Assembly: GCA_001785675.1 (NCBI GenBank)
Contig: MFUJ01000021.1
Coordinates: 2,139-34,800, forward strand
Origin: Candidatus Nomurabacteria bacterium RIFCSPHIGHO2_12_FULL_37_29
GTDB taxonomy: Bacteria > Patescibacteriota > Minisyncoccia > Phycocordibacterales > UBA9973
Reading direction: 5' to 3'
DNA: 32,662 bases
The notes under the pieces were generated by a model. It was not told where the DNA came from and made no database searches. It saw only the letters and a list, made by a program, of their open reading frames with translations. Positions 12,629-14,766 of this stretch are shown here, in pieces; the first letter of the stretch is position 1; each line of letters begins with the position of its first letter. A program made the position numbers and the translations under genes.

Positions 12629-12898
12629 ATGACAACAATTATTAACAACCCAAGAATTACCGAAAAAGCCTCTAATGCTGCCGAGCAAAATGTATATACT
12701 TTTGATATTTCATCCTTGGCGAATAAGACAGAAATCAAGAAAGCTATTTTTGTTCTCTATAAAGTAAAACCAGTAAAAGTGAATGTTTTATCAGTGCCGA
12801 AGAAAAACATAATGTCAAAAGGTAAAGCTGGAGTAAAAGGGGGAGGCAGAAAAGCCCTTGTGTATTTAAAAAAAGGAGATAAGATAGAATTTATTTAA
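12629..12898 (+). CDS. rplW: 50S ribosomal protein uL23
   Basis: An 89-residue protein. INNPRITEKASNAAEQNVYTF followed by NKTEIKKAIFVLYKVKPVKVNV matches uL23. It lies at the tunnel exit, where signal recognition particle and trigger factor dock. Its TAA overlaps the rplB ATG by one base (TAATG at 12896-12900), indicating coupled translation. Confidence 0.95.
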   Translation: MTTIINNPRITEKASNAAEQNVYTFDISSLANKTEIKKAIFVLYKVKPVKVNVLSVPKKNIMSKGKAGVKGGGRKALVYLKKGDKIEFI

Positions 12899-13737
12899 TG
12901 AAAACATATAAACCAACAAGTAAATCACGAAGACAGATGACCAATGTATCTTACAGAGGAATTTTGACCGAGTCACAACCGACCAAGTCTCTGACTCATG
13001 GCTTCAGACGTTCTGTTGGGCGCAACAGTCAGGGGCGTATCACTATGCGACACAAAGGCGCAGGGCATAAACGCCTGTATCGTGATGTGGATTTTTTATA
13101 TAACAAGAAAGAAATTCCGGCGAAAATAAAATCCATTGAATATGATCCAAATCGAAGTGCATTTATCGGACTCGCTGTTTACAAAGATGGAGAAAAAAGA
13201 TATGTGGTATTACCAAAGTCTGTAAAAAGAGGAAGCTCATTTGTCGTTTCAGAAAAAGCATCACTTGAAGTTGGCAATAGACTTCCTCTTAAAAATATTC
13301 CTGTTGGAACTTTTGTTTATAATATTGAAATAAAACCCTATGGTGGCGCGAAGATTGCTCGTTCGGCGGGGATCTTCGCGCAAGTGGTAGCAAATGCTGA
13401 TAGGTACACAAATATTAAAATGCCTTCAACCGAAATTAGAAAAATAAATGAAAACTGTTGGGCATCTATCGGTACTGTTTCGAACGAAGAACATCATTTG
13501 GAAAATTATGGCAAAGCCGGACGGTCTCGTTGGAAAGGTATTCGTCCGACAGTCCGCGGTACTGCCATGAATCCGGTAGACCATCCATACGGAGGTGGAG
13601 AAGGCAGACAAGGCCGTGGGACTAAACGTCCAAAGACCATGTGGGGAAAAGTTACCGGTGGACGTAAAACACGTGGTCCAAAAAAATACTCAAATGTTTT
13701 TATAGTTTCTCGCAGGAAAACTGGGAAGAATAAATAA
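12898..13737 (+). CDS. rplB: 50S ribosomal protein uL2
   Basis: A 279-residue protein needed for peptidyl transfer and subunit joining. MKTYKPTSKSRRQM, GRNSQGRITMRHKGAGHKR, NPVDHPYGGGEGR (containing the conserved His of the PTC-proximal loop) and KTRGPKKYSN are all intact. It is the last gene of its transcript: a 12-bp terminator follows at once. In most bacteria rpsS comes next without a break; here 680 nt of non-ribosomal sequence intervene. Confidence 0.97.
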   Translation: MKTYKPTSKSRRQMTNVSYRGILTESQPTKSLTHGFRRSVGRNSQGRITMRHKGAGHKRLYRDVDFLYNKKEIPAKIKSIEYDPNRSAFIGLAVYKDGEKRYVVLPKSVKRGSSFVVSEKASLEVGNRLPLKNIPVGTFVYNIEIKPYGGAKIARSAGIFAQVVANADRYTNIKMPSTEIRKINENCWASIGTVSNEEHHLENYGKAGRSRWKGIRPTVRGTAMNPVDHPYGGGEGRQGRGTKRPKTMWGKVTGGRKTRGPKKYSNVFIVSRRKTGKNK

Positions 13738-13773
13738 AAAAATTACAAAGGATAATCTTTTGTAATTTTTGTT
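13738..13773 (+). terminator. Terminator of the tuf-rplB operon
   Basis: AAAAATTACAAA (13738-13749) pairs with TTTGTAATTTTT (13759-13770), followed by GTT. The stem begins directly after the rplB stop. The loop region is GGATAATCT, nearly the same as in the terminator before tuf. Confidence 0.8.
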
Positions 13774-13807
13774 ATTCACATTTTATTATTGTGTTGTTTT
13801 TTATATA

Positions 13808-13816
13808 TGTTATATA
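13808..13816 (+). promoter_or_regulatory. Extended -10 for the small-ORF transcript
   Basis: TGtTATATA within a run of alternating T/A; the shifted TATAAG (13817-13822) is an alternative that pairs with TTGTTT (13794-13799) at 17 bp. Either predicts a start about 13823-13829, just before the AAGGAGGTG ribosome-binding site. Confidence 0.45.
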
Positions 13817-13835
13817 TATAAGTGAAGGAGGTGTA

Positions 13836-13949
13836 ATGGTAAAAACACACCATTACCACAAGAACAGATTCAGCCGACGAGTACGGCTGAAGGCTGGTCA
13901 TCGTTCCGACCGACGAGCAATTCGTCGTTTGGAAAAAAAGAAGAGTTAG
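13836..13949 (+). CDS. 37-residue arginine-rich small protein (possible)
   Basis: ATG to TAG, 37 codons, preceded by AAGGAGGTG (13825-13833), the longest match to the 16S anti-Shine-Dalgarno in the window. The peptide begins MVKTHHYHKNRFSRR and ends RRLEKKKS: about 10 Arg, 6 Lys and 4 His, and no acidic patch. Composition and position between rplB and rpsS suggest an RNA- or ribosome-binding protein, but it matches none of bL34, bL35, bL36, bS21, bS22 or bTHX by eye. Caution: the same bases form perfect hairpins (GTAATGG/CCATTAC 13833-13856 covering the ATG; TTCAGCCG/CGGCTGAA 13869-13891; CGACGA/TCGTCG 13911-13927), so this may be a structured RNA, or both. Confidence 0.45.
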   Translation: MVKTHHYHKNRFSRRVRLKAGHRSDRRAIRRLEKKKS

Positions 13950-14087
13950 CGTCTGGTCTCATCCTGGGGGGTGTGCGATTCTGCATGCTCCCCATTCCTA
14001 TTTTCTACTCAAAAGTTTTAACAGTTTAGAAATAAGCGACTCATTTCCTGCCATTTACTTGGCCCGCCCATCTAGGAAGCCGCTCAC
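13950..14087 (+). other. Hairpin-rich noncoding stretch after the small ORF
   Basis: No gene is seen. An 11-bp hairpin with wobble pairs joins 13966-13976 (GGGGGGTGTGC) to 13983-13993 (GCATGCTCCCC). A second, CTATTTTCTA (13998-14007), pairs with TAGAAATAAG (14027-14036) with one bulge. It appears to be the 3' part of the transcript ending at the 14088-14115 terminator. It does not contain the conserved sequences I know for RNase P RNA, tmRNA or SRP RNA. Confidence 0.5.
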
Positions 14088-14115
14088 AATACACAGAAAT
14101 GCTCTGTGTATTTTT
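14088..14115 (+). terminator. Intrinsic terminator of the small-ORF transcript
   Basis: AATACACAGA (14088-14097) pairs perfectly over 10 bp with TCTGTGTATT (14103-14112), with a 5-nt loop and a T run to 14115. It closes a unit of about 290 nt. The next promoter's -35 starts two bases later. Confidence 0.85.
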
Positions 14116-14116
14116 G

Positions 14117-14144
14117 TTGCTTTATTTTACGTATATGGTATATT
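14117..14144 (+). promoter_or_regulatory. Promoter of candidate small RNA upstream of rpsS
   Basis: TTGCTT (14117-14122), 16 bp, extended -10 TGgTATATT (14136-14144); the start is expected near 14151. It sits directly behind one terminator and ahead of a structured region that ends in another. Confidence 0.55.
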
Positions 14145-14150
14145 ACTAAA

Positions 14151-14258
14151 TGAATGGGTTCATCTCATATCTCAGTTTTTAACTCGCGAAGTTCAGGCAA
14201 ACTACTTCGTGAGTCTTAGGGGCTCGCTTGCAATCGAACGCAGGTGGCCCCTTTTTTT
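14151..14258 (+). ncRNA. Candidate small structured RNA, about 108 nt
   Basis: Between a promoter (14117-14144) and a T7 tract (14252-14258) lie two strong hairpins. One is ACTCGCGAAGT (14182-14192) with ACTTCGTGAGT (14204-14214), 11 bp with one G-U. The other is a terminator stem, GGGGC/GCCCC (14219-14223, 14247-14251) plus CTTGC/GCAGG (14227-14231, 14240-14244). The loop of the latter, AATCGAAC, is the exact complement of the GTTCGATT type of tRNA T loop, possibly by chance. An open frame crosses the region but has no ribosome-binding site and no protein-like composition. I cannot assign an RNA family; it lacks the SRP RNA tetraloop region. Confidence 0.5.
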
Positions 14259-14274
14259 GCCCAAATTCATTCGG

Positions 14275-14302
14275 TTGACATTTTACTCTTATTTGTTAGT
14301 AT
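14275..14302 (+). promoter_or_regulatory. Promoter of the rpsS operon
   Basis: TTGACA (14275-14280), 16 bp, extended -10 TGtTAGTAT (14294-14302). It is nearly identical in layout to the tuf promoter. Its presence means the second half of the S10 cluster is transcribed on its own. Confidence 0.85.
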
Positions 14303-14308
14303 GAAAAT

Positions 14309-14332
14309 AAGCTCGTTAGGAGCTTTTTGTTT
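14309..14332 (+). promoter_or_regulatory. 5'-terminal hairpin and U-run in rpsS leader
   Basis: AAGCTC (14309-14314) pairs with GAGCTT (14320-14325) around GTTAG, then TTTGTTT. It lies at the predicted transcription start, as in tuf. The primary sequences of the stems differ (AACTGC against AAGCTC) while the pairing is kept, which argues for selection on structure. Confidence 0.6.
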
Positions 14333-14408
14333 ACCCCCACACTTATATTAAAGATGTGCCTTAGGCACAGAGAGGGTACTCAAATATCTTTAATATAAGT
14401 GTGGGGGT
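14333..14408 (+). repeat. 23-bp perfect inverted repeat directly before rpsS
   Basis: Arms 14333-14355 and 14386-14408 are exact reverse complements (ACCCCCACAC at the outer end, AAAGAT at the inner). The 30-nt loop contains a nested hairpin GTGCC-tta-GGCAC (14356-14368). The right arm ends 10 nt before the rpsS ATG and would hold the G-rich GTGGGGGT in a duplex. It could be a translational control hairpin, a processing site for a double-strand ribonuclease, or a small mobile palindrome. Confidence 0.85.
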
Positions 14409-14418
14409 TCATTTAATC

Positions 14419-14766
14419 ATGACTCGATCAATTAAAAAAGGTATATACGTAGATGAGGGGCTATTAAAAAAGATTGCTGGTAAAAACCCGCTCCAGACGG
14501 AAGTGGTGAAGACTTGGAAGCGCGCTTGTGTTATTTCTCCAGAGATGCTTGGTTTCACCTTCGGTGTTTATAATGGGAAAGTTCATGTGGATGTTCTCGT
14601 TACTGAAGATATGGTTGGTCATCGATTAGGAGAATTTTCTCCGACCAAGAAATTTATTAAACATGGCGGAAAAATGCAGAAAGAACTAGAGCAGAAGAAA
14701 AAAGAAGCCGAGATAACTCAAGCCAAATCAGCTACAGCGGCGGCTGATGATGCGAAGAAAAAATAA
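14419..14766 (+). CDS. rpsS: 30S ribosomal protein uS19
   Basis: A 115-residue protein. MTRSIKKGIYVDEGLLKKI, the VHVDVLVTEDMVGHRLGEF block and SPTKKFIKHGG match uS19, which contacts S13 and the A-site finger in the 30S head. The last 30 residues, Lys/Glu/Ala-rich, extend past the usual 92 or so. ATG 14419 gives the family N-terminus; the GTG at 14401 lies inside the inverted repeat. It is the first gene of a nine-gene ribosomal transcript. Confidence 0.96.
   Translation: MTRSIKKGIYVDEGLLKKIAGKNPLQTEVVKTWKRACVISPEMLGFTFGVYNGKVHVDVLVTEDMVGHRLGEFSPTKKFIKHGGKMQKELEQKKKEAEITQAKSATAAADDAKKK

Follow-up and report, generated by a model that had tools for sequence, protein, structure and literature searches.

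The junction between the ribosomal-protein genes rplB and rpsS in the window (the whole stretch of 32,662 nucleotides analysed) contains a short gene that is best explained, with fair confidence, as a moron-like accessory transcription unit encoding a hypervariable basic micro-protein, lodged in a rplB-rpsS slot of one genus of Candidatus Nomurabacteria. By its named relatives, the source organism falls within Candidatus Nomurabacteria (Paceibacteria). The slot, its predicted frame (promoter P1, Shine-Dalgarno and terminator), coding selection in one pair of loci and the turnover of the payload all emerge from comparison of sequences between species. The adjacency of rplB and rpsS is among the most stable in bacteria, the two genes normally lying side by side. 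The main elements of the locus are the following:

12898..13737, + strand: rplB, upstream border of the slot (ORF list; homologues at all junction loci)
13738..13770, + strand: terminator-like inverted repeat after rplB, with 16-nt arms, 94% complementary, and then a T-run
13789..13816, + strand: predicted promoter P1, TTGTGT, 16 nt and an extended -10 TGtTATATA, aligning with P1 of sister species
13825..13833, + strand: Shine-Dalgarno (SD) AAGGAGGTG (sequence reading, genome pattern count)
13836..13949, + strand: 37-codon basic micro-ORF, ATG at 13836, stop TAG at 13947-13949, translation MVKTHHYHKNRFSRRVRLKAGHRSDRRAIRRLEKKKS
13965..14006, + strand: probable terminator of unit 1, a 13-pair GC-rich stem at 13965-13994 with tail CCCCATTCCTATTTT, in the style of sister species
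14275..14325, + strand: predicted promoter P2 and leader hairpin of the rpsS operon, kept genus-wide, downstream border of the slot
14416..14766, + strand: rpsS, downstream border of the slot (ORF list, junction extraction)

The first unit comprises the micro-ORF between a promoter and a terminator of its own, both predicted on purely consensus-based and comparative grounds. The P1 region aligns to L029, the stretch 13765-13826 matches L039, L028 and L119 (BLAST), and a P1-like arrangement is also present in L028, L044, L049, L058 and L071. The original prediction had placed the strongest SD of the window here, and this was borne out: AAGGAGGTG with its ATG (pattern AAGGAGGTGN{0,9}ATG, exact-pattern search of the whole genome) occurs a single time in 629,603 bases. 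The very basic composition claimed for the ORF was likewise confirmed, the peptide of 37 residues having 15 Lys or Arg (41%), 2 acidic residues, 4 His and a pI of 12.0. A type I toxin was rejected as a candidate on this composition and on the lack of any hydrophobic stretch in the peptide. The GC-rich hairpin at 13965-13994 (13 pairs, tail TTCCTATTTT) starts 15 nt after the stop codon and, judged from its sequence, probably terminates the transcript of the micro-ORF itself. It had been described as an 11-bp hairpin followed by a 10-bp terminator; both hairpins are present, but the first is longer and itself the probable terminator of unit 1, and the 10-bp stem opens a second unit.

The junction was taken from 49 species of the genus, where the gap extends from 48 bp (L053, same genus) to 1749 bp, against roughly 10-50 bp at neighbouring ribosomal junctions. 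Among 58 named loci from Paceibacteria and outgroups, the median gap is 341 bp for rplB-rpsS (above 100 bp in 45 loci), 46 for rplD-rplW, 17 for rplW-rplB, 14 for rpsS-rplV and 10 for rplV-rpsC; in Harrison-, Azam- and Giovannonibacteria and in Clostridia the rplB-rpsS gap does not exceed a few tens of bp. Because the gap is large at this one operon junction and short at its neighbours and in the outgroups, this point of the operon serves the clade as an insertion slot. The junction is enlarged too in Kaiser-, Taylor- and Vogelbacteria, other families of the order, whose junctions had no strongly basic SD-led ORF on the operon strand. A separate case is L174, one Paceibacteria genome with 2195 bp between rplW and rplB; another ribosomal junction, then, can take insertions as well.

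Cargo other than micro-ORFs is typical accessory DNA: HicA toxin genes in L047 and L054, a Phd/ParE-like pair in L077, a NUDIX gene in L044 and L071, a GIY-YIG gene in L035, a Fic gene in L155 and a diacylglycerol kinase in L076. At positions 568-638 of the L054 gap, after a hicBA-like pair, there is a second rplB 3' end (71 nt, 84.5%), which suggests an insertion scar and an integration that restores the gene end. A description of the slot was not found in the open literature, which is weak evidence of novelty with subscription papers outside the scope.

The class to which the micro-ORF belongs was defined by a scan of ORFs of 15-80 codons on both strands of the 49 junctions, with dinucleotide shuffles as the null. 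At SD>=6 and net charge >=+5 there are 22 ORFs on the operon strand, spread over 17 junctions, vs 1 on the opposite strand and 0.57 in shuffles; at SD>=8 and the same charge the figures are 13, 0 and 0.07. At least 17 of the 49 species thus have SD-led highly basic micro-ORFs at this junction, and any function they have is dispensable because about two thirds of the species have no such ORF in the slot. ORFs with SD>=7, chosen regardless of charge, carry +22.1 net charges per 100 codons in the ORF frame vs +11.1 and +8.4 in the other frames, the ORF frame having the highest charge in 15 of 18. Where a stem was identified in sister units, it mostly lies 5-25 nt after the micro-ORF stop, and the terminator tail motif has 13 matches (9 distinct sites) on the + strand and none on the - strand in 28.8 kb of junction DNA, vs 2 in 136 kb of control contigs.

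Selection at the protein level is evident from sequence divergence in the one pair that could be tested, L034 and L044. Their peptides are homologous (alignment score 58, matched by 0 of 5000 shuffles), identity at codon positions 1, 2 and 3 is 64, 68 and 27% over 22 codons (Fisher p 0.003), and different codons are used at 10 of 14 identical residues, synonymous sites being saturated. Since positions 1 and 2 are conserved and position 3 is saturated, these two micro-ORFs are taken to be selected proteins, and the comparison of synonymous with non-synonymous substitution that had been suggested gave, judged by codon position, a coding-type result for this single homologous pair. Profile and protein searches with the pair and with the L054 peptide returned their own species only, apart from weak matches. 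The window ORF itself has no alignable orthologue beyond a six-residue segment in one species; going by its class and its SD, it is very likely translated. The proposal of a new small protein was strengthened by the recurrence of such ORFs at the same junction, their frame-specific charge and the L034/L044 codon pattern, although the composition alone of peptides of 31-55 residues says little on function.

The payload differs from species to species. The tblastn search advised for rplB-rpsS junctions gave no orthologue of the window peptide in the 79 other species of the genus; what it did give was the in-frame RRAIRR (CGACGAGCNATTCGTCG), found in 2 of 80 genomes, the window's own and G025, at the rplB-rpsS junction in both and with 2 synonymous changes over 6 codons. 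No homologue was identified in 41 genera of the order, in phages or in PDB, profile searches with the peptide (P0001) had 0 matches in each of Pfam, NCBIfam, PHROGs and PDB, the sister peptides had nothing above a Pfam cut-off, and the window DNA had short chance-level matches only among 99 relatives. A viral contig contains CCGACGAGCRATTCGTCG, a pattern so short that, by estimate, chance alone would give one or a few matches in a collection as large as the one searched. Close pairs of loci are the most informative: L044 and L071 have flanks 92.9% identical and a NUDIX gene in common, with micro-ORFs that cannot be aligned (shuffle fraction 0.38), and L033 and L039 (91.9%) are similar in pattern. 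Tandem units 1 and 3 of L064 match over about 67 nt, from the promoter through the SD, beyond which their peptides are unrelated. On these sequence comparisons the turnover of the coding payload, by replacement or divergence, greatly outpaces change in the frame (P1, SD, terminator) and in the flanking genes.

The accessory-unit reading would work as follows. Transcription would start from the conserved P1 about 10 nt before a near-perfect SD, the ribosome would make a strongly basic protein of 37 residues, and the GC-rich hairpin with its interrupted U-tract would end unit 1 ahead of the separate rpsS promoter P2. From its charge, its lack of hydrophobic stretches and its high expected expression, the peptide may act on nucleic acid or on the ribosome, and payload turnover may proceed by recombination at the conserved flanks together with fast divergence. 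A bolder version, tentative and rather doubtful, is that of a payload-exchange site, in which the frame persists in the middle of the S10 operon while almost every species exchanges whole micro-proteins or gains them de novo, new coding sequence arising by inverted-repeat (template-switch) mutation and strong basic charge being all that selection retains.

Three known kinds of element resemble this unit in part. Phage morons are autonomous promoter-gene-terminator units which sit between conserved genes, carry a short accessory gene and vary among relatives; the slot unit is likewise an autonomous insert of this build between genes adjacent in relatives, with variable presence and content, but it lies in a bacterial ribosomal operon flanked by rplB and rpsS instead of a prophage, its peptide has no match in PHROGs, and its promoter/terminator frame, unlike the coding payload, is common across species. 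Integron cassettes occupy a fixed site behind a conserved promoter, vary in payload and involve an integrase and attC sites. The slot shares with them the variable payload behind a conserved promoter, the fixed place and the tandem units (units 1 and 2 of the window, L064), but every slot unit brings a promoter and an SD of its own; inspection by eye showed no integrase near the slot, the neighbours in the window being ribosomal-protein genes. The small basic ribosomal proteins bTHX, bL36 and bS22 are similar to the micro-protein in being very short, very basic and encoded among ribosomal genes; the micro-protein, in contrast, has no Pfam, NCBIfam or PDB match, is not conserved and is absent from most species of the genus.

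The transcript is rich in hairpins, three of them touching the ORF:

13833..13856, + strand: start-codon hairpin, 8 bp GTAATGGT/ACCATTAC (13833-13840/13849-13856), covering the ATG, in this species only
13869..13891, + strand: first hairpin wholly inside the ORF, 8 bp TTCAGCCG/CGGCTGAA (13869-13876/13884-13891)
13904..13934, + strand: last in-ORF hairpin, 6 bp CGACGA/TCGTCG plus an outer 6 bp, its core encoding RRAIRR

These correspond to the perfect stems of 7, 8 and 6 bp reported earlier; the stems are real and the first does cover the ATG, but it has 8 bp, and the 6-bp stem is extended. The hairpins raise the alternative, considered unlikely, of a structured non-coding or dual-function RNA, in which the hairpin array would be the product and the ORF incidental or a means of tuning. 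Folding is strong indeed: z vs shuffles is -4.75 for 13822-14118 and -3.62 for the ORF part (13822-13952), unit 2, which lacks an SD-led ORF, has a z of -5.04, and the class has a mean z of -2.2 with dinucleotide shuffles vs +0.23 in coding controls (49 segments of the window, 0 below -2), exceeding its codon-shuffled versions as well (mean z -1.8). Against this, the excess is found on both strands across the class (mean z -2.30 vs -2.83 for the complementary strand), so that selection of the stems on the RNA strand was rejected. Neither the positions nor the shapes of the hairpins are conserved between species, the charge of the ORF is frame-specific, the L034/L044 divergence is of coding type, and Rfam had no family at the gathering score, a permissive search giving sub-threshold matches only. 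The best of the latter, MIR6224 at 14333-14408, was discarded as merely the perfect 23-bp inverted repeat at that site. With equal folding of both strands and no Rfam family, the earlier idea of a structured or dual-function RNA lost its footing. Conserved control of translation by the ATG hairpin fared no better, and start-codon sequestration was rejected as a common control: P(unpaired) of the start codon is 0.02 in the window and mostly 0.3-0.8 in sister units, most of which lack the hairpin.

The folding excess suggests DNA-level inverted repeats rather than RNA selection, and the in-ORF hairpins are read in this way because both strands fold equally and start sequestration is not shared. 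Such repeats, arising for instance by template switching, would be a simpler account of the hairpins than a conserved riboregulator. Template switching in replication has been reported as a source of perfect hairpins (PMC8794818) and of coding change (PMC8604942); its role as the origin of the hairpins at this locus is a suggestion from the present analysis.

The second unit of the window follows directly:

14088..14116, + strand: terminator-like hairpin opening unit 2, a 10-bp stem at 14088-14112 and then TTTTTG, homologous to the post-rplB terminator plus P1 of L033
14117..14144, + strand: predicted promoter of unit 2, TTGCTT, 16 nt, TATATT
14145..14262, + strand: predicted transcript of unit 2, 118 nt, hairpin-rich, with a GC-rich terminator before a T-run near 14255

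No SD-led ORF was identified in the transcript at 14145..14262. The hairpin at 14088-14112 probably marks the start of a separate second unit and not the end of the micro-ORF transcript.

In ribosomal and amino-acid operons, peptide leaders and attenuators consist of a short ORF with a strong SD and a terminator soon after the stop. The slot unit has the same layout, and it could accordingly be asked whether translation of the micro-ORF senses free ribosomes or stalling and so controls terminator read-through into the rpsS half of the S10 operon. The distance from stop to stem, here and in most sister units, suits this improbable alternative, as do an interrupted terminator tail that may leak, a place in the S10 operon fit for ribosome control and a mechanism in which conservation of the peptide sequence is not needed. 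It was rated lower because rpsS has its own promoter downstream: P2 and its leader hairpin are present genus-wide beyond the terminator, which makes read-through unneeded. Moreover, unit 2 sits between the terminator and rpsS, many species have no unit or have toxin-antitoxin or other genes in its place, and an attenuator would need no bias of charge towards a single frame.

The rpsS leader (14275-14331) comprises the promoter, immediately a short hairpin (AAGCTCGTTAGGAGCTT) and a U-tract, an order found genus-wide. Both arms of the hairpin vary across the genus (AAGGCTC..GAGAGCC, GAGCTC..GAGCTC, AGGCC..GGCCT), and it may be a 5'-end stabiliser or an autoregulatory site; RNAalifold gave no consensus for the P2 leader in an alignment that visibly put the arms out of register. 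The 5'UTR of rpsS also contains, at 14333-14408, the perfect 23-bp inverted repeat already mentioned, MITE-like and with a 30-nt spacer. In L033, L035, L051, L054 and L069 the same spot holds unrelated palindromic elements or a GIY-YIG gene with inverted repeats on either side.

Neutral cargo would mean a gap tolerant of insertions, gaining and losing promoters and ORFs with no host function. This would fit the absence from many species, the hypervariability, the selfish or accessory nature of the other cargo and the L054 scar with its duplicated rplB 3' end, but is very unlikely given a recurrent consensus SD, frame-specific basic charge and a conserved style of promoter and terminator, all unexpected of drifting DNA, and the coding-type divergence of L034/L044.

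The accessory unit encoding a basic micro-protein implies a slot that is hypervariable across the genus, has an expression frame at consensus strength and lies in an otherwise frozen region of genomes measuring about 0.6 Mb. It raises the question of what minimal, probably host-dependent cells gain from a fast-changing basic micro-protein beside their ribosomal genes. If the payload-exchange proposal were true, the slot would serve naturally as a place where genes for micro-proteins binding the ribosome or nucleic acid are born again and again. The pairs L044/L071, L033/L039 and L034/L044 offer a gauge of how fast new small proteins arise and come under selection, and the frame (P1, SD, terminator tail) is an annotation handle for short genes that tools may miss.

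The slot is favoured by such units and not exclusive to them. No ORF with SD>=8 and comparable charge was found elsewhere in the genome (sampled contigs, 136 kb, plus the window). A strong SD was rejected as a marker elsewhere: among 30 AAGGAGGTG-ATG loci of the genus that were inspected, strongly basic micro-ORFs occur at junctions only, the other loci lying mostly within genes or before very short ORFs of neutral or weak charge. Similar GC-rich small-ORF units are rare outside the junction; L248 (a 98-codon ORF) and L269 (several small ORFs) are GC-rich cassettes in G049 and G030, respectively, in which the terminator-tail motif is present. L273 (G021) is a separate basic ORF of 40 codons, MAKRGTTLSPKKKSRHSHKTKKRLEIKRQMLQAKKAKKRS, located off the junction. 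Finally, in L186, L196 and L212, also from Nomurabacteria, consensus SDs precede tiny ORFs whose Cys-rich C-termini (such as ...NICDCDSGGECCSN) give them the look of RiPP precursors.
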